A DNA stretch of 15,072 bases, taken from the NCBI GenBank assembly GCA_937877295.1, contig CALFIV010000004.1, forward strand, positions 1-15,072. Direction: 5' to 3'. The position numbers and the translations under genes are program-made. Shown in pieces: positions 1 to 11,310 of the stretch. This DNA is from an uncultured Clostridia bacterium (GTDB taxonomy: Bacteria > Bacillota_A > Clostridia > Christensenellales > CAG-138). Position 1 is the stretch's first letter. Every line of letters begins with the position of its first letter. The notes under the pieces are model-generated. The model was not told where the DNA came from. It worked only from the letters and a program-made list of their open reading frames with translations, and made no database searches.

Positions 1-248
1 TCTCAAACTGGACCATCATTCACATTACCGGCCGCGACCGTGTGATCCGCTGCAGCGCGTGTCGCCAGATCTGGCATTCATTTGCCGGTTACACAAATGA
101 ACTGCCCGAAAAGCTGGTTTCGCCGTATGTCTGGCGTCAACTGATTCATACGCCGGATTACCATAAAGGCGAAGATCCCATTGAGGGCGAAGCTGACAGC
201 TATCTTGATCCGGAATTCGAAAGTCGTTTTGATAAGAATGAACCATGA
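1..248 (+). CDS. C-terminal part of an unidentified protein (5' end outside window)
   Basis: The frame is open from base 3 to the stop at 246-248, giving 81 residues of a protein that begins upstream of the window. It contains a CSAC (CxxC) pair near its start, in the context RVIRCSACRQIW, and then an acidic, hydrophilic tail with no membrane segment. The stretch from SNWTII to the CxxC faintly resembles the small DUF951 family of Firmicutes (GSN-W....C..C), but the ~50-residue tail after it is not part of that family, so this is only a suggestion. The stop overlaps the ATG of the GtrA-like gene (ATGA), so the two are probably translated from one mRNA. Function unknown. Confidence 0.55.
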   Translation, partial: SNWTIIHITGRDRVIRCSACRQIWHSFAGYTNELPEKLVSPYVWRQLIHTPDYHKGEDPIEGEADSYLDPEFESRFDKNEP

Positions 249-676
249 AACATGAGTTTTTACGAACAATCAAATATGTTCTGATTGCCGCTTCGGCAGG
301 ACTTATCCAGATAGTCAGTTTCACGCTGATGAACGAGCTGATTGGCTGGGATTACTGGTTGAGCTATCTCATTGCTCTTGTATTATCTGTGATCTGGAAC
401 TTTACGTTCAACCGTCGCTACACATTCAAGAGTGCTTCTAATATCCCGAAGGCAATGCTACTTGTCTTTGCCTATTATTGTGTCTTTACGCCGCTCTCAA
501 CGCTTTTGGAGCATTATCTGACAGACAAGCTGCATTGGAACGAATATCTTGTCACTGCGATCAACATGGTTCTGAACCTTGCTACAGAGTTTCCGTTCCA
601 AAGGTTTGTGGTATTTCGCAAAACAATTGATACCAATGATCTTGCAAAAAAGGAATCCGAAAAGAGCAGCGAATAA
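245..676 (+). CDS. GtrA-family four-helix membrane protein
   Basis: A 143-residue protein with four predicted hydrophobic segments (roughly residues 8-30, 36-53, 68-88 and 99-118) and the GtrA-type signature around residues 50-62 (SVIWNFTFNRRYTF), repeated in variant form near the end (FPFQRFVVFR). GtrA proteins are small inner-membrane proteins associated with cell-surface polysaccharide or teichoic acid glycosylation, often proposed to help translocate lipid-linked sugars; the exact substrate cannot be read here. The length is normal for the family. The start overlaps the stop of the upstream gene by ATGA, implying translational coupling. The hydrophilic, Lys/Glu-rich C-terminus ends inside the left arm of a strong terminator, so the gene is last in its transcript. 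Confidence 0.85.
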   Translation: MKHEFLRTIKYVLIAASAGLIQIVSFTLMNELIGWDYWLSYLIALVLSVIWNFTFNRRYTFKSASNIPKAMLLVFAYYCVFTPLSTLLEHYLTDKLHWNEYLVTAINMVLNLATEFPFQRFVVFRKTIDTNDLAKKESEKSSE

Positions 677-770: not shown

Positions 771-796
771 TGGTGCGAGTGTTGATAACGGACTTA
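771..796 (-). repeat. Copy 1 of a dispersed ~26-bp motif
   Basis: It contains TGTTGATAACGGACTTA (780-796), repeated exactly at 963-979. Including flanks, 771-796 and 954-979 match at about 23 of 26 positions. It lies in the 349-bp intergenic region 677-1025, which holds no gene I can support. The same core (TCCGTTATCAnCACTCG on the opposite strand) recurs at 2203-2219 in the hairpin after the adenosine-deaminase-like gene. Confidence 0.6.
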
Positions 797-914
797 TTCG
801 AAAAAGGTTGGTAGCGAAAGCTTTTCGTCGTGAGGGCGTTTACAACCGCGCAGAAAAGCTGAGCATGATCTTTTTTCTGAAAGGAGTCGCAGCGGAGTAA
901 AGCGATTTTGCAAC

Positions 915-954
915 AAAAAAGTCGTCGCAAGCCAAACAGAGCTTGCGACGACTT
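915..954 (-). terminator. Rho-independent terminator for the adenosine-deaminase-like gene
   Basis: On the minus strand a 14-bp perfect stem (954-941 with 932-919, AAGTCGTCGCAAGC/GCTTGCGACGACTT) with an 8-base loop is followed by a T run (920-915). It lies about 70 bases past the stop of the gene at 1026-1964. Confidence 0.9.
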
Positions 955-979
955 GGAACGAATGTTGATAACGGACTTA
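954..979 (-). repeat. Copy 2 of a dispersed ~26-bp motif
   Basis: Second copy of the motif at 771-796, in the same orientation, start to start 183 bp apart. It abuts the minus-strand terminator hairpin (919-954), so it lies between the adenosine-deaminase-like gene and its terminator. It may be part of a repeat family or a relic of a duplicated terminator region; function unknown. Confidence 0.6.
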
Positions 980-1025
980 GAATAATACGCAAAAGCAACC
1001 GCACTACACATTCCTAATACAATGC

Positions 1026-2171: not shown

Positions 2172-2220
2172 GGTAAAAAGAAATCGAGTGGTGATAACCA
2201 AATCCGTTATCACCACTCGA
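2172..2220 (-). terminator. Host terminator originally downstream of tRNA-Leu
   Basis: A 15-bp perfect stem (2220-2206 with 2198-2184) with a 7-base loop is followed on the minus strand by TTTCTTTTTACC. It starts two bases from the att copy at 2223, so before the element inserted it sat directly behind the 3' end of tRNA-Leu and ended that transcript. The insertion now separates it from the tRNA by 5 kb. Confidence 0.75.
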
Positions 2221-2222
2221 CA

Positions 2223-2245
2223 TGGTGCGATTGGCGGGATTTGAA
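2223..2245. repeat. att site, distal end (tRNA-Leu 3' fragment)
   Basis: This 23-bp stretch is identical to 7291-7313, which is the CCA end, acceptor 3' strand and T-arm of tRNA-Leu. Identity ends at 2246 (T versus C at 7314), so this copy is only a fragment of the tRNA, as expected for the end away from the reconstituted gene. A small inverted repeat ATGAAAT-CGC-ATTTCAT (2249-2265) lies just inside. Confidence 0.9.
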
Positions 2246-2350
2246 TTGATGAAATCGCATTTCATGCCTTTACATAGATTTCCAAAAAGTGCCTGTTTAT
2301 CTATGTTTTTTGGCATCTCCGTTGCAAATCGTTTTACCTCATTTCATAAC

Positions 2351-2385
2351 TTTGTGAGACTTGGTCTCACAAAAGTCTCACAAAA
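2351..2385. promoter_or_regulatory. Left arm-type integrase binding sites (11-bp repeats)
   Basis: Two head-to-tail copies of GTCTCACAAAA (2364-2374, 2375-2385) are preceded by an inverted copy (TTTGTGAGAC, 2351-2360). The same tandem pair occurs at 7202-7223 near the other end. Tandem ~11-bp repeats inside both ends are what the N-terminal arm domain of lambda/Tn916-type integrases binds. The inverted copy makes a 10-bp-arm palindrome that is absent on the right side. Confidence 0.65.
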
Positions 2386-2425
2386 GACAACTTATGAATT
2401 GCACATCCTTGTAGGTTACCGCATC

Positions 2426-2908
2426 TCATTGTCCGCTCTTTGCATCTGCATATCCCGCCTCATATCCATCCTCATATCCTGCATTGTATGCTTCGTCCAC
2501 AACCGCATCATATTCCATTGATAATGCATTCATCTTGTCTTCATAGTACGCTTCCATTTCTTGTAACGAATTGCTCCAATCGTTTTCCATCTCTTTAATT
2601 GTATCATTCAAGTCATCAATTTCTGCATCATACTTGTCACTTATTTCGTCAATATGGTTTTCGTGCTCACGAGCAATTTCATCCATTTCAAATGTGTGAT
2701 CGCGCTTAATGTCTGAAATATCATCCTCAAAGCGAGATACCATTTCATCGTATTTCTCTTGCCACTCTGCGTTCACACGATCTTCTATAGGCTTTACAAA
2801 CAACACGTTTAGTATACCGCATACGATAAATACTCCAACAATAATCAGTCCGCAGTACAGTATGTACTTCCAATCAATACTCGAAATCCACTCTCTAATC
2901 TTCTTCAT
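2426..2908 (-). CDS. Membrane-anchored coiled-coil protein with C-terminal GY repeats
   Basis: A 160-residue protein of unknown function. After a short basic N-terminus (MKKIREW), residues about 14-37 form one hydrophobic membrane segment. Residues about 42-130 are rich in Glu, Asp, Lys and Met with heptad-like spacing, so probably a long coiled coil, and the tail (about 140-156) repeats Gly-Tyr every four residues (AGYEDGYEAGYADA). A type II anchored rod facing the cytoplasm or cell surface is plausible. The ATG at 2908 was chosen because GGGAG lies 8 bases upstream; a GTG at 2923 overlaps that ribosome site. It has its own promoter and is the only element gene outside the integration and replication modules, hence the candidate cargo: it could be a satellite-phage interference, exclusion or membrane-attachment protein, but nothing proves this. 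Confidence 0.75.
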   Translation of the reverse strand: MKKIREWISSIDWKYILYCGLIIVGVFIVCGILNVLFVKPIEDRVNAEWQEKYDEMVSRFEDDISDIKRDHTFEMDEIAREHENHIDEISDKYDAEIDDLNDTIKEMENDWSNSLQEMEAYYEDKMNALSMEYDAVVDEAYNAGYEDGYEAGYADAKSGQ

Positions 2909-2979
2909 CGTATTATCTCCCACTTATAGCATGGTATCTTCTTGTCTGTATAATGCAACAATCCTCATTCTTTTTGCTA

Positions 2980-3008
2980 ATTATACCTTTATTCCATTGA
3001 TATTTCAA
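2980..3008 (-). promoter_or_regulatory. Promoter of the coiled-coil membrane protein gene
   Basis: On the minus strand TTGAAA (3008-3003) and a perfect TATAAT (2985-2980) are 17 bp apart, about 70 bases upstream of the ATG at 2908. The gene is therefore transcribed separately from the replication operon, which ends at a terminator near 3526-3548. Confidence 0.75.
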
Positions 3009-3018
3009 TACGCTATCG

Positions 3019-3037
3019 TATATGCTGATCGCATATA
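3019..3037. promoter_or_regulatory. Inverted repeat just upstream of the 2980-3008 promoter
   Basis: TATATGC-TGATC-GCATATA has 7-bp arms and sits 10 bp upstream of the -35 box. Its position suits an operator for an element or helper-phage regulator. It shares no motif with the candidate operators at the divergent switch region. Confidence 0.35.
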
Positions 3038-3057
3038 AAAACGGAGTAACGGTTTTA

Positions 3058-3233
3058 AACAGCGTCATGCCAATGCAAAGACCGTGCGACTCGCATTGCT
3101 ACGACCGCCCAACAGCGCCTTAAATCAGCGCGTACACGGTGCTGAAAGCATCCGGAACAACGCTACAACAACGCTACCTAGCGTTGTTTCGTTGCTAATC
3201 AACAGCGCTACAACGGTGCATCCATGCGCTGTT
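3058..3233. repeat. Cluster of AACARCGC repeats, candidate replication origin
   Basis: The octamer AACARCGC or a one-mismatch form occurs at 3058, 3111, 3124, 3156, 3167 and 3201 on the plus strand, and inverted at 3226-3233 and within 3179-3189. The copies at 3156 and 3167 are exact 11-bp tandem repeats (AACAACGCTAC), and the second pairs with the inverted copy to give a 10-bp-arm palindrome (3167-3176/3179-3188). It lies in the 770-bp gene-free interval 2909-3679, downstream of the replication-type gene. Iteron clusters of this kind bind initiator proteins in phage and satellite origins; initiator binding here is inferred. Confidence 0.5.
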
Positions 3234-3261
3234 CGCATTGCAAAGACGGTGCCAGCTGCAT

Positions 3262-3316
3262 GACAGAATCCCGACATCTCTATGACATTATACTGACATG
3301 AACCGGACATCCGTAT
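3262..3316. repeat. Five GACAT-type repeats at exact 11-bp spacing
   Basis: GACAG/GACAT occurs at 3262, 3273, 3284, 3295 and 3306, each exactly 11 bp after the last, while the six bases between copies are not conserved. This helical phasing implies a row of proteins bound on one DNA face. It immediately follows the AACARCGC cluster, and a GC-rich hairpin follows it (3331-3345, TCGGGG-CTT-CCCCGA), then a palindrome CCATGC-CT-GCATGG (3369-3382). The remaining gene-free stretch to 3525 shows nothing else I can name. Confidence 0.5.
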
Positions 3317-3525
3317 CACGGCATCGGGTATCGGGGCTTCCCCGACAAGTGGTATTTATCCCCTAATCCCATGCCTGCATGGACATCGCAATTATGATCA
3401 GCGTATACCTCTATCGAAATAGCACACCTATCCCGCCCATAATCCTTTTTCTCCCATCATAGAGAAATGGTGCTTCTAAATGGTCGAACGCGAATAATAG
3501 GGCTTGTAGCTATCGCATTCCAAAC

Positions 3526-3548
3526 AAAAAAGACGGTGATTCCGTCTT
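3526..3548 (-). terminator. Terminator of the element's replication operon
   Basis: On the minus strand the stem AAGACGG/CCGTCTT (3548-3542 with 3536-3530) with a 5-base loop is followed by a T run (3531-3526). It lies about 130 bases past the stop of the replication-type gene and separates that operon from the candidate origin. Confidence 0.75.
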
Positions 3549-3679
3549 CTCTGTCTCAAGTCTTGGTATCATCAAGCAATTACTATCTATTCTTCCATAT
3601 AACGCGATCTCTCGTTCAGACTATTTCATAACTACAACCACCGCCTGCACGGTTTTTATCAACGGGCGGCTATAGGGGA

Positions 3680-4489
3680 CTATGTTTCTTTGTACAAATC
3701 TACCCGCAATGCATCAAAGTCTGATTCGCTGATTGGCTTCTGATCATATTCCAATGCCGAATTCCTTTTCACTTTTGGCGGTTCACTTTCCCATCTGCGC
3801 ATGGTCAACCACTTTGCGGGATAAGGAATATAATCCGGTTCATTCCGTGCATTCCAATACCGAACCCATTTTTCAAGACCCTCAAAGACTGATTTGCAAA
3901 GCGTATCATCAATTACCAAACTGTTCCATACTTTCTGCGCTTTATGCTCGTCAACCTTCCTAGGATACAGTTCCCACCATTCCGTAAATAAATCGTTTGA
4001 ATTCAATGCGCGGCATTCCCCTTTAGTTTTCGGTTGGCTTGCATTCCCTTCATTCGAATTTGATTTAGTTCCATTATATTCTATGGTCAAGCCCCCTTGA
4101 GGGGTCTCAAGCCCCCTTGAATTCATCAACCGTCTATGCGTTTCTTTCGCTATGCTATATCCGTGCGCAAACTCTTTTTCACGGAACAGCGTATCAGTAT
4201 AGTCTTCATGTTTTGCCCATTCGAGCCAAAACTCGTCATCTTTGTAACTCTTTTTTATAGACCCAAATATCTGCGATTTCCATTGCGAATTGAAACCACC
4301 TTCAACAGTTCCCCAAAGCAGTTTAAAATACGGCTTCAATTCTCTTGGTAGGTCTTCCGGGATAACCGAATTATATGCACGATCATAAAGAGCTTGAAGC
4401 ACGGTCTTCAGTTCTGACGCTTCATAATCGTCCAACATATCTTTCAATGCATCACTATTGATCAGCATTGCCGAAGGGGTCTCCAACAT
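3680..4489 (-). CDS. Phage replication-type protein (two-domain)
   Basis: A 269-residue protein. Residues about 8-110 (LINSDALKDMLDDYEASELKTVLQALYDRA...) resemble the DUF6291-like N-terminal domain of Gram-positive phage proteins. Residues about 125-160 are a low-complexity linker. Residues about 168-234 carry the block F-TEWWELYPRKVD...W...YIPYPAKWLTMRRWE, typical of the C-terminal region of phage replication (lambda O-like or DnaD-associated) proteins. Role inferred: binds the element's origin and recruits the host helicase loader; no helicase or primase motif is present. It is last in the five-gene operon; its ATG shares one base with the preceding stop (TAATG), with AAAGAGGTG upstream. 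The adjacent 3058-3316 repeats are the likely target. Confidence 0.7.
   Translation of the reverse strand: MLETPSAMLINSDALKDMLDDYEASELKTVLQALYDRAYNSVIPEDLPRELKPYFKLLWGTVEGGFNSQWKSQIFGSIKKSYKDDEFWLEWAKHEDYTDTLFREKEFAHGYSIAKETHRRLMNSRGLETPQGGLTIEYNGTKSNSNEGNASQPKTKGECRALNSNDLFTEWWELYPRKVDEHKAQKVWNSLVIDDTLCKSVFEGLEKWVRYWNARNEPDYIPYPAKWLTMRRWESEPPKVKRNSALEYDQKPISESDFDALRVDLYKET
4087..4120. repeat. Short direct repeat inside the replication-type gene
   Basis: TCAAGCCCCCTTGA occurs at 4087-4100 and 4107-4120, 20 bp apart, in the linker region of the replication-type gene. Each copy is itself an inverted repeat (TCAAG/CTTGA). Since 20 is not a multiple of three, the two copies are read in different frames, so the repetition is at the DNA level. 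It could be an internal protein-binding site (phage O genes commonly hold their origin) or replication slippage. Confidence 0.5.
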
Positions 4490-4662
4490 TACTGCGTCAC
4501 CTCTTTATCATCATCATGCCGCCCGTCACGCTTGCAATTCGGATTCTTGCCCATGCGGAACGGATACAACGGACATTTTGTGATCGGACAATTCCGAACC
4601 TCTGACGGTTGAAAGAACGAACAATCAAGGCATTTCGCCCGTATCGCTTTCACCGGAGTCAT
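4489..4662 (-). CDS. Small Cys-rich phage/satellite protein (putative zinc-binding)
   Basis: A 57-residue protein below usual gene-calling size, in an operon with overlapping neighbours on both sides (ATGA upstream, TAATG downstream). It has five cysteines arranged KAIRAKCLDCSFFQ...VRNCPITKCPLYPFRMGKNP, a pattern I recognise from conserved hypothetical proteins of Firmicutes prophages (CxxC....CP...CPL-P-R-G). This suggests a small zinc-ribbon fold that could bind DNA or protein. A ribosome site (GGGGTGAG) lies just upstream of the ATG. Function unknown; position between the excisionase-like and replication genes suggests an early role in excision or replication. Confidence 0.75.
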   Translation of the reverse strand: MTPVKAIRAKCLDCSFFQPSEVRNCPITKCPLYPFRMGKNPNCKRDGRHDDDKEVTQ

Positions 4663-4844
4663 GCGGTCTCACCCCCCAAGCTGTTCAGCATCTGCACAAG
4701 ACGGTCGAAATTGATCAGAGTCTTGTTACCCGTCCTGATCGCGGGCAACCGTCCTTCCTTTGCCATCTTCCGCAGGCAACGCTCCGGCAGTATACCCGTC
4801 TTTGCAACCTCATGAATGCTCATGAATCTCGGTAAGCTTGTCAT
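4659..4844 (-). CDS. Excisionase / AlpA-like MerR-type DNA-binding protein
   Basis: A 61-residue protein whose residues about 7-52 (FMSIHEVAKTGILPERCLRK..., then GRLPAIRTGNKTLIN...LVQML) match the winged-helix pattern of the excisionase/AlpA family: an HTH that reads -hEvA--gi-...-lR--ak-GrlPa, followed by a short wing and a final helix. In integrative elements such proteins bend DNA at the ends and direct the integrase towards excision. The ATG at 4844 was chosen over one at 4892 because it overlaps the upstream stop as ATGA and has GGAGGAAGAG just before it. Being in the repressed divergent operon means it is made only on induction. Confidence 0.75.
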   Translation of the reverse strand: MTSLPRFMSIHEVAKTGILPERCLRKMAKEGRLPAIRTGNKTLINFDRLVQMLNSLGGETA

Positions 4845-5008
4845 TGTTTCTCTTCCTCCTCCATCAAAATCTGTACGATCACATCTTCCCATAGTTCAAA
4901 ATACCTCACTGCATTGTCCGTCCCGTTTGTTCTCTTCTGTCGGTCAAATATGTCCCGCATCTTACCGTACATCTCTTCCCGTACATCCTTAACGCTTCTC
5001 TTGGTCAT
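4841..5008 (-). CDS. Unknown 55-aa protein of the satellite operon
   Basis: A 55-residue protein that starts at MTKRSVKDVREEMYGK and ends EEEEKQ. It is charged, with a basic N-terminal half and an acidic end, and predicted mostly helical with no membrane segment or cysteine. It is supported as a real gene by ATGA overlaps with both neighbours, a ribosome site (GGGGTGATC) before its ATG, and the lack of any gap in the operon. I recognise no family. By position it may be an early regulator or a partner of the excisionase-like protein. Confidence 0.65.
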   Translation of the reverse strand: MTKRSVKDVREEMYGKMRDIFDRQKRTNGTDNAVRYFELWEDVIVQILMEEEEKQ

Positions 5009-5187
5009 TCGATCACCCCGCTTGACAGCTTTGCGATGATCGCGTACACCTTTTCCTTCTGTCCTTCCGTCAGTTCATGACGAAGCTTGCGGGAAAAGTT
5101 TCCATCCGTCATGCCCAACGCATTCGCTATCTGCCACAGTTTCACATCCGCCTGCTTTGCCGCTTCTCTGATTTCTTTGTTCTGCAT
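5005..5187 (-). CDS. Cro-like small HTH protein, first gene of the lytic-side operon
   Basis: A 60-residue protein; residues about 13-40 (DVKLWQIANALGMTDGNFSRKLR) form a helix-turn-helix in which LWQIANALG and DGNFSRKL fit the two helices. Such short proteins are common at the start of early operons in Clostridia prophages and integrative elements, and I infer a Cro- or Str-like role opposing the XRE repressor encoded divergently. AGAAGG lies 7-8 bases before the ATG, and the stop overlaps the next gene as ATGA. It could instead be an accessory repressor; no target motif proves either. Confidence 0.7.
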   Translation of the reverse strand: MQNKEIREAAKQADVKLWQIANALGMTDGNFSRKLRHELTEGQKEKVYAIIAKLSSGVIE

Positions 5188-5212
5188 CTTTTTACCTTCT
5201 TTCTTAAATTGT

Positions 5213-5271
5213 TGTTGACAACAGATAATGTGTTGCGGTATTATAATAACAGCAACAGATCATAAATGCAA
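5213..5271. promoter_or_regulatory. Overlapping divergent promoters and candidate operators (genetic switch)
   Basis: Plus strand: TTGACA (5215-5220), 18 bp, TATTAT (5239-5244), driving repressor-integrase. Minus strand: TTGCAT (5271-5266), 17 bp, TATTAT (5248-5243), driving the HTH-xis-rep operon. Both -10 boxes fall in one palindrome, TATTATAATA (5239-5248), so the two promoters cannot be occupied together. Candidate operators are TGTTG-A-CAACA (5213-5223) over the plus -35 and TGTTGC/GCAACA (5231-5236, 5252-5257) around the -10. Confidence 0.6.
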
Positions 5272-5297
5272 TGAGTTTATTGCGTTTTATGTATAAC

Positions 5298-5309
5298 CGA
5301 AATATTTCG
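5298..5309. promoter_or_regulatory. Perfect 12-bp palindrome in the repressor leader
   Basis: CGAAATATTTCG lies between the promoter and the ribosome site (GAGAGGAG, 5317-5324) of the repressor gene. It is a candidate autoregulatory operator but differs from the TGTTG sites upstream, so it may bind a different protein. Confidence 0.4.
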
Positions 5310-5331
5310 TTGAATCGAGAGGAGCAAAACA

Positions 5332-6030
5332 ATGGAACGCAACAAATACAATCAGTCAAGAGAGAGCAGAACGTTCCCGTCTCAGCTTAAAGAACTCTGT
5401 CCCGTATCTGATCGGCACAGCCAACAAACGTTAGCTGATCATCTTGGGGTTACTCGGCAATGCATCAGTAATTGGATATTCGGAAAAACGAAACCACAAG
5501 AGTTTGAGACTCTTGTGAAGATTGCACAGTATTTTAATGTTACAACCGATTGGCTTCTTGGTATGCCAAACGCATCGAAAGAGGTCAATGCAGACAAATA
5601 TCAAGTTATGAAGACAACTGGATTGAGCGAAAGAGCGGTTGATCAACTTATCAATGCTTCCGTTGAACATCCCCAAGCCGTTGATTCCTTACTGTCCGTC
5701 AACGATTTCACTACCGCAATGAGCGACTTGGATGAAGCAATTCATCTCTCGCAGAATTGGTTATGCGATTCATACTATCTGATTCCGGCATACAACGAAC
5801 AGCCTACAATAGATGACATCGAAGATATTCAAAAAAGGTCTGACGGTTATCCCACGATCATTCAAATAAACGAAATTGTGCGGTATCTGATATCCTACGC
5901 ATTTGAGGAAATCGAAAGTCAAGTCATGAAAGATATCCTACGCAACATCTATTCGATCATGCACGAAGAATGGAACGCAGAAAAGGAAGGTGCAGAAAGC
6001 AATGGCAACGATCACGGCACGGAAGAATAA
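5332..6030 (+). CDS. XRE-family repressor (CI/Stl-like) with a large C-terminal domain
   Basis: A 232-residue protein. Residues about 29-75 (HSQQTLADHLGVTRQCISNWIFGKTKP...ITDWLLG-like end) are a classical XRE/lambda-type helix-turn-helix. The remaining ~150 residues are mostly helical and acidic and are not a LexA-type self-cleaving domain (no Ser/Lys pair and no Ala-Gly cleavage context). As with Stl repressors of SaPIs, derepression may therefore come from a helper-phage protein binding this domain rather than RecA; this is inference. GAGAGGAG sits 7 bases before the ATG. The 3' end overlaps the integrase start by 29 bases in another frame, so the two are co-translated and expressed in the integrated state. 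Confidence 0.85.
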   Translation: MERNKYNQSRESRTFPSQLKELCPVSDRHSQQTLADHLGVTRQCISNWIFGKTKPQEFETLVKIAQYFNVTTDWLLGMPNASKEVNADKYQVMKTTGLSERAVDQLINASVEHPQAVDSLLSVNDFTTAMSDLDEAIHLSQNWLCDSYYLIPAYNEQPTIDDIEDIQKRSDGYPTIIQINEIVRYLISYAFEEIESQVMKDILRNIYSIMHEEWNAEKEGAESNGNDHGTEE

Positions 6031-7183
6031 AGACGGGATCATCACATCATACACGATTCGCGTCTTGCTTTACGAAGACAGTAAGGGCAAGCATTATGAG
6101 ACATCCTCTTTCAAGATCAATCCCGAATGGAAGGAAAAGACCGCACGGAAAAAAGCCGAAGCATATGCGGCAACCTTTGAACGGGACATCAAAAACGGAG
6201 TTTTGTCTAACGAGCGCAGACGGTTTGATGACTATGCGGAGTATGTGATTGAATTGAAGCAATCCACGGGAAAATGTAAAACTACAACGCTTGATCGGTA
6301 TCGGCAGATGAGACAGCAAGTCTACCCCGCTATCGGTTATATCCGTCTAAAGGATTTGAGACCGGAACACCTCAACCGTTTCTACATGGACTTGAAGACG
6401 GGCAAATTCACGGGAAACCCACTTTCGGCAAAGTCTATCCGCAATTATCACGGTTTTATCTCAACCGTATTGGAGCAGGCATTCAAGGAAGGTGCTGTGG
6501 TCATGAATGTCGCGCATCGTGCCGAACCGCCGAAGGTGGAACAGAAAGAACCGGAAACGCTTGAAGTCGAACAGCTTCAGACGATCTTCAAAGTCTTGGA
6601 AAGCGAACCGATGAAATGGCGGGCGGCAATCATGCTTCTTGCGGAAACGGGAATGAGGCGCGGTGAGTTATTCGGTCTCAAATGGGACAAGGTGAATCTG
6701 AACACCGGAACAATTGAGATTTGCAACAACCTTCTCCGAAGCAGAGAAACGCATACGCTCTACGAAGATACTCCTAAAACGAAAATGTCCAATCGGACGA
6801 TCTGCATCACATCCGAAATGACGGACTTTCTGAAGCAATACAAAGCATGGCAGAACGAAGAGCGCTTGCGGCTCGGCGGTTACTTTGTCGATAAAGGTTT
6901 TCTATTCGCGCAAGACAACGGAAACCCCATGCAACCGGACAGCTTGACGAATTACTGTTGCGTCCATCTTCAGAACCTATGCGGTTTCCACATCTCCCCG
7001 CATTTGTTCCGACACACGCAGGCAAGCTTGCTGATCGCAAACAAAGTTCCGATCACATCCGTCTCAAAGCGGCTCGGTCATTCACAGACCAGTACCACGA
7101 TGAACATCTACGCACATGCTTTGAAGAATGCGGATGAAGAGAATGTGAAGGTGCTTCAGACGCTTCTCTACGGTCAGAATTAA
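6002..7183 (+). CDS. int: Tyrosine recombinase (phage-type integrase)
   Basis: A 393-residue integrase with an N-terminal arm-binding domain (about 1-60), a SAM-like core-binding domain (about 75-165, FDDYAEYVIE...) and a catalytic domain with the full set: R219 in TGMRRGEL, K261 in TKMSNR, H334 and R337 in HLFRHT, H360 in LGHSQ and Tyr nucleophile Y370 in MNIYAH. It should catalyse integration into and excision from the tRNA-Leu site at 7291-7313. The ATG at 6002 is preferred (GGAAGG 11 bases before); a GTG at 5990 would overlap that site. Length and domain order fit lambda/Tn916-type integrases, which bind core and arm sites, consistent with the 11-bp repeats at both ends. Confidence 0.95.
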   Translation: MATITARKNKDGIITSYTIRVLLYEDSKGKHYETSSFKINPEWKEKTARKKAEAYAATFERDIKNGVLSNERRRFDDYAEYVIELKQSTGKCKTTTLDRYRQMRQQVYPAIGYIRLKDLRPEHLNRFYMDLKTGKFTGNPLSAKSIRNYHGFISTVLEQAFKEGAVVMNVAHRAEPPKVEQKEPETLEVEQLQTIFKVLESEPMKWRAAIMLLAETGMRRGELFGLKWDKVNLNTGTIEICNNLLRSRETHTLYEDTPKTKMSNRTICITSEMTDFLKQYKAWQNEERLRLGGYFVDKGFLFAQDNGNPMQPDSLTNYCCVHLQNLCGFHISPHLFRHTQASLLIANKVPITSVSKRLGHSQTSTTMNIYAHALKNADEENVKVLQTLLYGQN

Positions 7184-7201
7184 CGCAGTTTTCGAGCGAA
7201 G

Positions 7202-7223
7202 GTCTCACAAAAGTCTCACAAAA
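7202..7223. promoter_or_regulatory. Right arm-type integrase binding sites (11-bp repeats)
   Basis: Two head-to-tail copies of GTCTCACAAAA lie 18 bases past the integrase stop and about 70 bp inside the att site. Together with the preceding G they are identical over 23 bp to the left-arm pair at 2363-2385, in the same orientation. Confidence 0.65.
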
Positions 7224-7246
7224 CGCAGAAATCGGAATACATAGAA

Positions 7247-7281
7247 AACGAAAAAGCCCCGTATTTAGGGCTTTTTTCGTT
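7247..7281. terminator. Bidirectional terminator between integrase and tRNA-Leu
   Basis: The stem AACGAAAAAGCCC/GGGCTTTTTTCGTT (7247-7259 with 7268-7281, one bulged base) has T runs on both strands. On the plus strand it ends the repressor-integrase transcript; on the minus strand it lies 10 bases past the tRNA-Leu CCA and can replace the terminator displaced to 2172-2220. Confidence 0.8.
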
Positions 7282-7290
7282 GTTAGAATG

Positions 7291-7313
7291 TGGTGCGATT
7301 GGCGGGATTTGAA
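7291..7313. repeat. att site, tRNA-proximal end
   Basis: The 23-bp direct repeat of 2223-2245, here part of the intact tRNA-Leu gene (CCA, acceptor 3' strand and T-arm). Because it keeps the tRNA sequence exactly, integration leaves the gene functional. Confidence 0.9.
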
Positions 7314-7373
7314 CCCGCAAGGTTTCCCCGACGGATTTTAAGTCCGTTGTGTATGCCGTTCCACCACAATCGC
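7291..7373 (-). tRNA. tRNA-Leu (anticodon UAA), CCA encoded
   Basis: On the minus strand the gene begins GCGATTG (7373-7367) and ends CAATCGC-A-CCA (7301-7291), giving a 7-bp acceptor stem with encoded CCA. The anticodon arm is ACGGA-CTTAAAA-TCCGT with TAA at the anticodon position. A short variable arm (CGGGGAAACCTT) fits a class II leucine tRNA, and the T arm is GCGGG-TTCAAAT-CCCGC. The length is 83 bases with CCA. It is the attachment site of the element. Confidence 0.95.
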
Positions 7374-10302: not shown

Positions 10303-11310
10303 TCAGTTTCCTTTCTTTTCGTTCGCGGGAGCTGCAGATTTTCCGATAGCCGTACGCATCTCCGTATCAGACATCACGTTTTTCATATTGTAGTAATCGA
10401 GTACGCCGAGCTTTCCTTCACGCAGAGCTGCGGAAATCGCCTGTGGAACTTCCGCCTCCGCCTCGATAACGCGAGCACGCATGCGCTGCACTTCCGCAAC
10501 GTTTTCCTGTTCCTGTGCAACCGCCATTGCGCGGCGCTCCTCCGCCTTTGCCTGTGCAATACGTTTATCCGCTTCCGCCTGATCGATCTGGAGTTGTGCG
10601 CCGACGTTTCTGCCGACGTCTACGTCTGCAATATCGATAGAGAGAATCTCAAACGCCGTACCGGCGTCCAGGCCTTTGGAAAGAACCGTGCGAGAAATGG
10701 AGTCAGGGTTCTCCAAGACTTCCTTGTGGCTTGCTGCGGAGCCGACCGTGGTGACAATACCCTCACCGACACGCGCAATGATCGTTTCTTCACCAGCGCC
10801 GCCGACAAGACGGTCGATATTGGCGCGCACCGTCACCTTCGCCTTTGCGCGGAGTTCAATACCGTCCATTGCGACAGCAGCGATGATCGGGGTTTCGATG
10901 ACTTTCGGATTGACGCTCATCTGGACGGCGTTCAAGACGTCGCGTCCTGCAAGGTCAATGGCGCAAGAACGCTCAAAATCGAGCGGAATGCCTGCACGTT
11001 GTGCTGCAATCAGAGAATCGACAACACGATTGACGCTGGCTTTTCCATTGATCTTACCGCCTTTGGCAAGATAATGTGCCTCGAGTTTATTCATCGGAAT
11101 GGACAAGCCGGCCTTGGTCGCTTTGATCATCGGATTGACGATATCCGCAGCGTTGACCTTACGGATGCGCATACCGATCAGCTGGAACAGCCCGATCTTC
11201 ACGCCGCTGGCGCTTGCCGAAATCCACAGTCCGAGCGGTACAAACGAAAAGAAGATGATCAGGAATACAACGACAGCAGCGCCGATGATCCAGGGAATAA
11301 TATGTTCCAT
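10303..11310 (-). CDS. floA: Flotillin-like protein FloA
   Basis: A 335-residue protein close to FloA (YqfA) in length and layout: an N-terminal hydrophobic hairpin (about 5-30), the SPFH/band-7 domain (about 35-230, including [18 protein letters not shown] and [31 protein letters not shown]), and a Glu/Ala-rich helical region (about 235-290, [21 protein letters not shown]). FloA forms lipid-raft-like membrane assemblies that influence membrane fluidity, protein secretion and cell-wall enzymes. A perfect AGGAGG lies 5 bases before the ATG. It is preceded by nfeD-like and zinc-ribbon genes; the nfeD-floA pairing is the standard arrangement for the family. Confidence 0.95.

Follow-up and report, generated by a model that had tools for sequence, protein, structure and literature searches.

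How can an element of about 5 kb, integrated in a tRNA-Leu gene and lacking recognisable packaging or transfer genes, replicate and move? We addressed this question for positions 2223-7290 of a 15,072-nucleotide stretch of contig CALFIV010000004.1 (assembly GCA_937877295.1), from an uncultured Clostridia bacterium of the CAG-138 lineage; the whole stretch is referred to here as the window. Judged by its DNA sequence, the element is an intact site-specific integrative replicon in tRNA-Leu(UAA), with an integrase-repressor pair facing away from a cassette of helix-turn-helix (HTH), xis and rep genes and iterons. We tentatively propose that the small satellites and phages of this group load helicase in one of three exchangeable ways: by their own helicase (AAA_25/DnaB), by their own loader (G39P/AAA+), or by a tail on Rep like that of the host co-loader, which would recruit the host loader. 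The window element would be a ~5-kb example of the third way, in which a host-matched tail of ~27 residues takes the place of a loader gene and may contribute to host range. No earlier description of a tail-for-loader exchange was found in the PMC literature, a search that did not cover subscription papers.

The element is 5068 bp long and is bounded by identical 23-bp cores. The direct repeat TGGTGCGATTGGCGGGATTTGAA is found at 2223-2245 and 7291-7313 with 100% identity and a spacing of 5068, and its right copy lies within the tRNA-Leu gene. A second repeat, GGTCTCACAAAAGTCTCACAAAA, is present at both element ends, where the pair would be placed like the arm-type sites of an integrase; by reading, analogous TGTGACA/TGTTACAC repeats stand either side of the core in two related elements, L081 and L146. 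The features of the two ends are:

2183..2221, minus strand: terminator-like hairpin left of the element (16-pair stem and T run)
2223..2245, plus strand: attL, the left 23-bp core, identical to 7291-7313
2363..2385, plus strand: arm-type repeat GGTCTCACAAAAGTCTCACAAAA, copy 1 (repeat comparison)
7201..7223, plus strand: arm-type repeat GGTCTCACAAAAGTCTCACAAAA, copy 2 (repeat comparison)
7251..7276, minus strand: terminator-like hairpin inside the right end of the element, next to the tRNA (terminator scan)
7291..7313, plus strand: right 23-bp attachment (att) core, the 3' end of tRNA-Leu (repeat comparison, tRNA call)
7291..7373, minus strand: tRNA-Leu(TAA), the target gene, intact (ARAGORN; Rfam RF00005, 60.9 bits for 7294-7373)

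The hairpin at 2183-2221 has homologues in L155 and L160 and is probably the original terminator of tRNA-Leu, separated from it by the integration. The hairpin at 7251-7276, which by reading has counterparts in L001 and L146, may be its replacement. As the terminator scan gave about as many sites in the real sequence (5) as in shuffles (5.1), only long stems are meaningful. An empty site, one of the checks proposed in an earlier note on this DNA, was found in L159, where a homologue of window 245-676 is followed by the tRNA within about 150-170 bp.

The gene layout consists of a rightward repressor-integrase pair, a leftward operon of five overlapping genes, a non-coding region and a coiled-coil gene:

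2426..2905, minus strand: membrane-anchored coiled-coil protein, 159 residues as translated (hydrophobic segment and invariant EDRVNAEWQEKYDEMV block)
2906..3679, no strand: non-coding region, presumed origin, with four iteron-like repeats (3075, 3130, 3207, 3240)
3680..4489, minus strand: Rep, 269 residues, phage-type initiator with co-loader-like C-terminal tail (phrog_9327/9474/270, 4.7e-13 to 1.3e-11)
4489..4662, minus strand: small Cys-rich protein, 57 residues (DUF7451 at 0.01 only, below cut-off)
4659..4844, minus strand: excisionase (Xis) of HTH_17/TIGR01764 type, 61 residues (TIGR01764, 29.1 bits against a cut-off of 28.8)
4841..5008, minus strand: 55-residue protein (no convincing family in Pfam, PHROGs, NCBIfam or PADLOC)
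5005..5187, minus strand: 60-residue HTH-like protein (HTH60), first gene of the leftward operon (phrog_17740, unknown function, 3e-13)
5188..5331, no strand: divergent control region, TTGACA-18-TATTAT and palindromic TGTTGACAACA (promoter/motif scan)
5332..6030, plus strand: XRE/CI-like repressor (PF01381, 9e-9)
5999..7183, plus strand: tyrosine integrase, 394 residues (PF00589, 1.9e-25; phrog_1, 8e-68)

The integrase ATG (5999) lies 32 nt within the XRE gene. With the ATG at 4844 taken as the start of Xis (open reading frame 4659-4892), adjacent leftward genes overlap by 1-4 nt. The non-coding region contains GCNNNNACNGTGC four times on one strand inside 178 bp, and the pattern occurs nowhere else in the window (shuffles: mean 0.46, 0 of 200 reaching 4); it should be noted that the pattern was defined after the region had been read, making this a post hoc statistic. 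No Peptidase_S24 match to the repressor was found in Pfam, and weak matches of its HTH to terminase phrog_2538 (0.0085) and PADLOC RmrA (1.8e-7) were set aside. Scans of the element against Pfam, PHROGs, NCBIfam and PADLOC (E up to 0.1) gave no credible packaging, structural or relaxase family and no recognisable phage-interference gene, and the first three libraries gave no primase family.

The description in the earlier note thus held up well. The 23-bp repeat of the tRNA 3' end is exact, and family matches agree with its integrase, XRE repressor, xis- and rep-type genes, while the minus-strand overlaps make "coupled operon" the right term. The repeat-rich non-coding region, the single membrane coiled-coil gene and the lack of recognisable packaging and transfer genes were likewise confirmed, and the argument against simple decay is supported: reading frames, cores, arm repeats and promoter-like sites are all intact.

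The Rep tail emerged from a search of a family set (103 genomes of the family of L001). Rep matched 16 places in 13 genomes, 7 of the 16 being chromosomal proteins, not Rep genes, matched by the last 31-38 residues only. Of these seven, L114 was scanned and belongs to the DnaB_2 co-loader family (PF07261, 3.8e-29); as a query it gave one match per genome in 97 of the 103 genomes, and its gene overlaps that of an AAA+ loader of IstB/DnaI type (PF01695, 5.8e-10). In Bacillus subtilis, the C-terminal tail of DnaB contacts the AAA+ domain of DnaI (PMC13326638; this and the other papers cited are represented here by excerpts). The C-terminus of the window Rep reached a score of 88 with the best-matching of 49 host tails, while shuffled tails scored at most 50 in 300 rounds. 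These host tails, one reading frame each, came from 30 loci of the co-loader search, 12 hand-chosen regions including Rep-bearing genomes, and 7 more. The 17 best hosts (scores 73-88) include G001-G004, whose FloA proteins are 93-96% identical to that of the window, and exclude G005 and G007 (91-92%).

Host matching was tested for 18 Rep-domain proteins from 14 genomes, 8 from the Rep search and 10 from a tail-free Rep profile which matched 9 of 297 genomes and found G105 again. The own host ranked first for 7 of the 18 and in the top three for 9, and own-host scores added up to 1105, the mean over permutations being 583 (sd 104; 0/20000). The excess was also seen with one Rep per genome (n = 14; 739 vs 408, 0/20000) and in the tail-free set (n = 10; 512 vs 275, 2/20000). 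Nine of the 18 Reps were judged by eye to be tailed, the weakest being G339 (score 63). Their genomic context, with gene names by reading and not from a library, places G027a in a prophage, G079 in a phage-like cluster and G105 beside a tRNA-Thr near a contig end.

An own loader or helicase was found beside 8 of 10 tail-less Reps and beside 0 of 10 tailed Reps, including that of the window (two barely assessable; downstream reach was 583 bp for G105 and 17 bp for G030b). The tail-less Reps were accompanied by PF11417 G39P (G173, G279, G035 and, as the tenth, L081 at 1.7e-9), by PF01695 (G208, and also G186, where the match is below cut-off, two genes away and truncated at the end of the locus) or by a DnaB helicase (G008, G051). 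The tail-less G271 and G033c had no loader or helicase beside Rep, G271 having one marginal match (8e-4) on the other strand. Eight loader/helicase queries, of which these same elements and phages supplied seven, found nothing in the window element or in the regions (4.7-20 kb) around the nine other tailed Reps, a search which a quite different loader would escape. In the set of small elements, each has one visible solution: a helicase in L146 and L001-A, a loader in L081 and the tail in the window.

A separate question is whether the tail is a docking device at all. It could be shared with the chromosomal co-loader by descent or gene exchange and have no function, which we regard as quite possible. 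Several observations weigh against docking. Six of the nine tailed Reps (G027b, G033a, G033b, G030a, G030b, G339) are apparently lone chromosomal genes, so the tail result rests on few mobile cases, only three besides the window's. A weaker host-match excess also exists outside the tail, so that the controls are not fully clean: for residues 11-45 from the Rep end, 124 (all 18), 153 (one per genome) and 1864 (tail-free) of 20000 permutations equalled or exceeded the observed sum, and for residues 46-80 the numbers were 1282, 2626 and 119. The Rep fold model was poor (predicted local distance difference test, pLDDT, 55), and a fold search against PDB gave no match at E ≤ 0.001. Set against a functionless tail, the G027a prophage Rep and the G105 Rep each match their own host best of all 49, tail and own loader or helicase have so far never been seen together, and in B. 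subtilis the loader is bound by the corresponding tail (PMC13326638).

For the lone chromosomal Reps a host match is expected by descent; the host-match claim was therefore narrowed, and general host matching of mobile Reps was dropped. These lone Rep-domain genes with a host co-loader tail lie at L333:5722-6390, L334:5262-6197, L335:4915-5739, L336:5508-6536, L337:3539-4675 and L338:5763-6656. One genome, G033, has three Rep-domain genes, one of them tail-less. Among viral contigs, Rep alone gave 6 pattern stretches, 0 confirmed, and the Rep profile gave 483 relatives, of which the best 80 were kept, these being phage contigs sharing the C-terminal domain. As their hosts are unknown they were left out of the tail test, and no placeable close tail match was seen among the part listed.

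Relatives of the element were found as well. An integrase was present at E ≤ 1e-60 in 5 of 103 family genomes and 3 of 396 order genomes, and the exact 23-bp core in 16 of the 103. Two complete elements occupy the same tRNA-Leu: L146 (G079), with cores 5250 bp apart and an integrase 66% identical to the window's, and L001-A, with cores 5306 bp apart and 42% integrase identity. Both encode an AAA_25 helicase-like protein (PF13481; 5.1e-27 and 4.2e-24, respectively), a different replication module, so that simple deletion from either would not give the window element. A remnant, L001-B, is found beyond L001-A; its integrase end has 84% DNA identity to the window, and it keeps two iteron-like copies 35 bp apart and a 63-bp piece of the window non-coding region (79% identity), the only piece of that region found in the 103 family genomes (in G001). 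The earlier note had proposed to look for the gene set in tRNA-Leu of related genomes; relatives of PICI-like (phage-inducible chromosomal island) order exist, two of them at the same tRNA.

A candidate for a free form is L081 (IMG/VR contig 3300029305_004411, 7056 bp), in which an exact terminal direct repeat of 127 bp gives a circle of 6929 bp. It carries a single core beside an integrase 67-68% identical to the window's, a similar-looking control region and the same gene order: HTH60 (54%), Xis (74% over 58 residues), a Rep related in its C-terminal domain (41%) and further genes. From its layout, L081 looks like an excised, or tandemly repeated, form of a relative of the window element. 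Phages seem to use the tRNA-Leu att core too, since the phage-like contig L247:1-5724, with Erf and holin, has the identical 23-bp core next to its own integrase, although it was not seen integrated and its integrase showed no close kinship to the window's.

The life cycle proposed here is of the satellite type. In the first step, the XRE repressor would silence the divergent operon until a phage or other factor relieves repression. PICI repressors are relieved by a partner protein, and, as no S24 match was found, this is likelier here than SOS cleavage. Int and Xis would then excise a circle carrying one core. Rep would bind the iterons, and its tail would recruit the host DnaI-type AAA+ loader and helicase, so that the element would need neither a loader nor a helicase gene. 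A helper phage would passively package circles or concatemers by means of a short DNA signal, without a satellite TerS. The coiled-coil membrane protein, expressed from its own promoter, would be cargo. Integration is shown by the sequence and excision is supported by the circular L081, the two on their own being very probable; the other steps are inferred, and repressor relief, excision, tail-recruited replication and helper packaging taken together are plausible but short of probable.

Other findings count against a satellite. Induction, packaging and phage transfer are predicted events, no packaging signal was identified in the element, and L081 may be an episome or tandem array despite its IMG/VR listing. 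The cargo role of the coiled-coil protein, perhaps in phage exclusion, is a guess. In favour of a satellite, both same-site relatives have weakly TerS-like genes, in L146 by phrog_2538/4044/3218 (1.2e-5 to 2.1e-5) and in L001-A by PF16677 (2.1e-6; 28.3 bits against a cut-off of 29.4). However, the L146 matches span the N-terminal helix-turn-helix, phrog_2538 also touches the window XRE repressor, Pfam gave no TerS match for a protein of L255 81% identical to the L146 protein, and a late-activator PHROG is among the matches of the L001-A protein (8.3e-4).

The foremost rival to the satellite is an integrative mobilisable element, that is, an integrating replicon which has only an oriT and is moved in trans by a conjugative element. 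We consider this unlikely. It would account for the missing packaging gene, plasmids too carry related integrases (626 of 72,556 records, all <60% identity), and oriT-only plasmids have been described as hitchers (PMC11389934). Against it, Pfam, PHROGs and NCBIfam scans of the window found no relaxase/Mob family, nor was one recognised among the scanned proteins of L146, L001-A and L081 (not every reading frame), Rep is of phage type, and two same-site relatives have the weakly TerS-like genes. The earlier note had proposed either a minimal phage satellite or a replicon mobilised in trans; that reading is supported in part, as to the intact integrating replicon of PICI-like order and its relatives, one of them circular, with satellite and mobilised replicon both as candidates.

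Least likely is an immobile, decayed remnant of a larger prophage or satellite which lost its packaging genes. Relatives may have TerS-like genes missing here, and true remnants lie nearby (L001-B, integrase end only; L164, truncated AAA_25 gene), but no damage is seen in the reading frames, in either core, in the arm repeats or in the promoter-like sites, two Rep homologues of equal length exist elsewhere at 82-83% identity, and the size is close to that of the two other core-to-core elements. The earlier note had reasoned that homologues with structural or relaxase genes would mark a remnant; two relatives have the weak TerS-like genes, but the scanned proteins of relatives included no recognisable structural or relaxase protein, so that a remnant is not clearly indicated.

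Several further observations concern the element's cargo and surroundings. The coiled-coil gene has a sigma70-like promoter upstream (3008-2980), and its product has 6 homologues besides itself among 19 candidates. This rare family has 16 consecutive invariant residues, EDRVNAEWQEKYDEMV, just past the hydrophobic segment in 7/7 sequences, followed by a variable tail, often with GYxxGY repeats. Weak matches to an Rz-like spanin PHROG (0.04), Gp58 (0.017) and TraP (0.069) were set aside, and likeness to FliH, spanin or ZorA was rejected as it looks like coiled-coil bias. Searches of the 103 family and 396 order genomes gave weak matches in 2 and 1 genomes, respectively, which were disregarded (E 1.9e-4 to 7e-4), and the profile gave 44 pattern stretches in viral contigs, 0 confirmed. 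A single 27-bp match of the non-coding region to phages (E 0.07) was rejected.

In L001:14146-20400, a complete 5.3-kb element and the remnant akin to the window's element stand in tandem at one tRNA-Leu and adjoin apparent type I restriction genes (by reading); these were not borne out as cargo, as no further core (≤5 mismatches) was found in 16 kb. A related element, L164:8097-11067 (G005), adjoins a tRNA-Met (11187-11262). Its AAA_25 protein matched over the first ~100 residues only, the left-end gene comes next, and the element is probably a deletion remnant. A dispersed repeat of ~150-195 bp, starting with 20/23 core bases, was found at L155:1037-1185 and in 25 other matches in 11 of 13 genomes (1-5 per matching genome; none in G001 or G079); in several genomes it lies directly beside tRNA-Leu and resembles a tiny att-bounded unit. 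Left of the element, window 771-1000 is a non-coding repeat with 75-81% copies in L160 and L003, to the left of an adenosine-deaminase-like gene (named by reading). The two lie between a GtrA-like gene and the element, a stretch that measures only ~150-170 bp in L159, and window 771-897 in L003 was rejected as an empty site since it proved to be a repeat. A gene of the window which we take to be FloA, from reading of its sequence and not from a library match, is 96% identical in L001 and L002 (metagenome-assembled Clostridia) and 91-94% in L003-L005 and in L007, whose copy is partial; these values come from the best 80 of 586 loci.

Compared with known systems, the element shares with Gram-positive PICIs and the SaPIs (Staphylococcus aureus pathogenicity islands) the divergent order int-repressor // xis-rep-ori, with a Rep lacking a recognisable primase and a presumed ori, and the absence of structural genes. 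The order claimed in the earlier note therefore stands, as does the smaller size, 5.07 kb against ~15 kb; it differs from PICIs both in this size and in att exclusivity (PMC6092414), as the exact core also lies beside the integrase of the phage-like L247, which is indirect evidence. No terS, cpm, ppi or other interference gene was recognised in it. A terS gene is not universal among PICIs, some of which rely on a helper cos or pac site instead (PMC6092414, PMC5052747). The StCI satellites of Streptococcus thermophilus also have att repeats, an integrase, regulatory and replication genes and no structural genes; unlike here, satellites are given as 7-20 kb, an StCI primase gene is named and an inducing phage is known (PMC13376191). 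The proposed role of the tail is comparable with that of phage 77 ORF104 and G39P-type loaders, phage proteins which act at the DnaI/helicase-loading step; ORF104, however, inhibits DnaI and its phage encodes its own loader homologue (PMC4887207), whereas the host-like tail in the window is proposed to recruit. Should the tail indeed dock the host loader, a short peptide would account for the access of very small replicons to the host replisome, and one peptide would suffice to test both satellite host range and helicase loading in these uncultured Clostridia. Nearest in economy are the PICMIs (phage-inducible chromosomal minimalist islands) of Vibrionaceae, which have a similar minimal set (an integrase, an excision regulator, a replication gene and few unknown genes), an overlap of int with another gene and no capsid-remodelling genes in the published description (PMC10803314). 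They differ in having a primase of DUF3987/DUF5906 model, AlpA and a fis site, where the window element has a phage-initiator-like Rep, an XRE repressor, a tRNA-Leu site, a Clostridia host and no primase family. PICMI115, at 6,110 bp, is described as the smallest satellite element whose activity has been characterised (PMC10803314); if packaged, the window element would be smaller still, showing how few genes may suffice.

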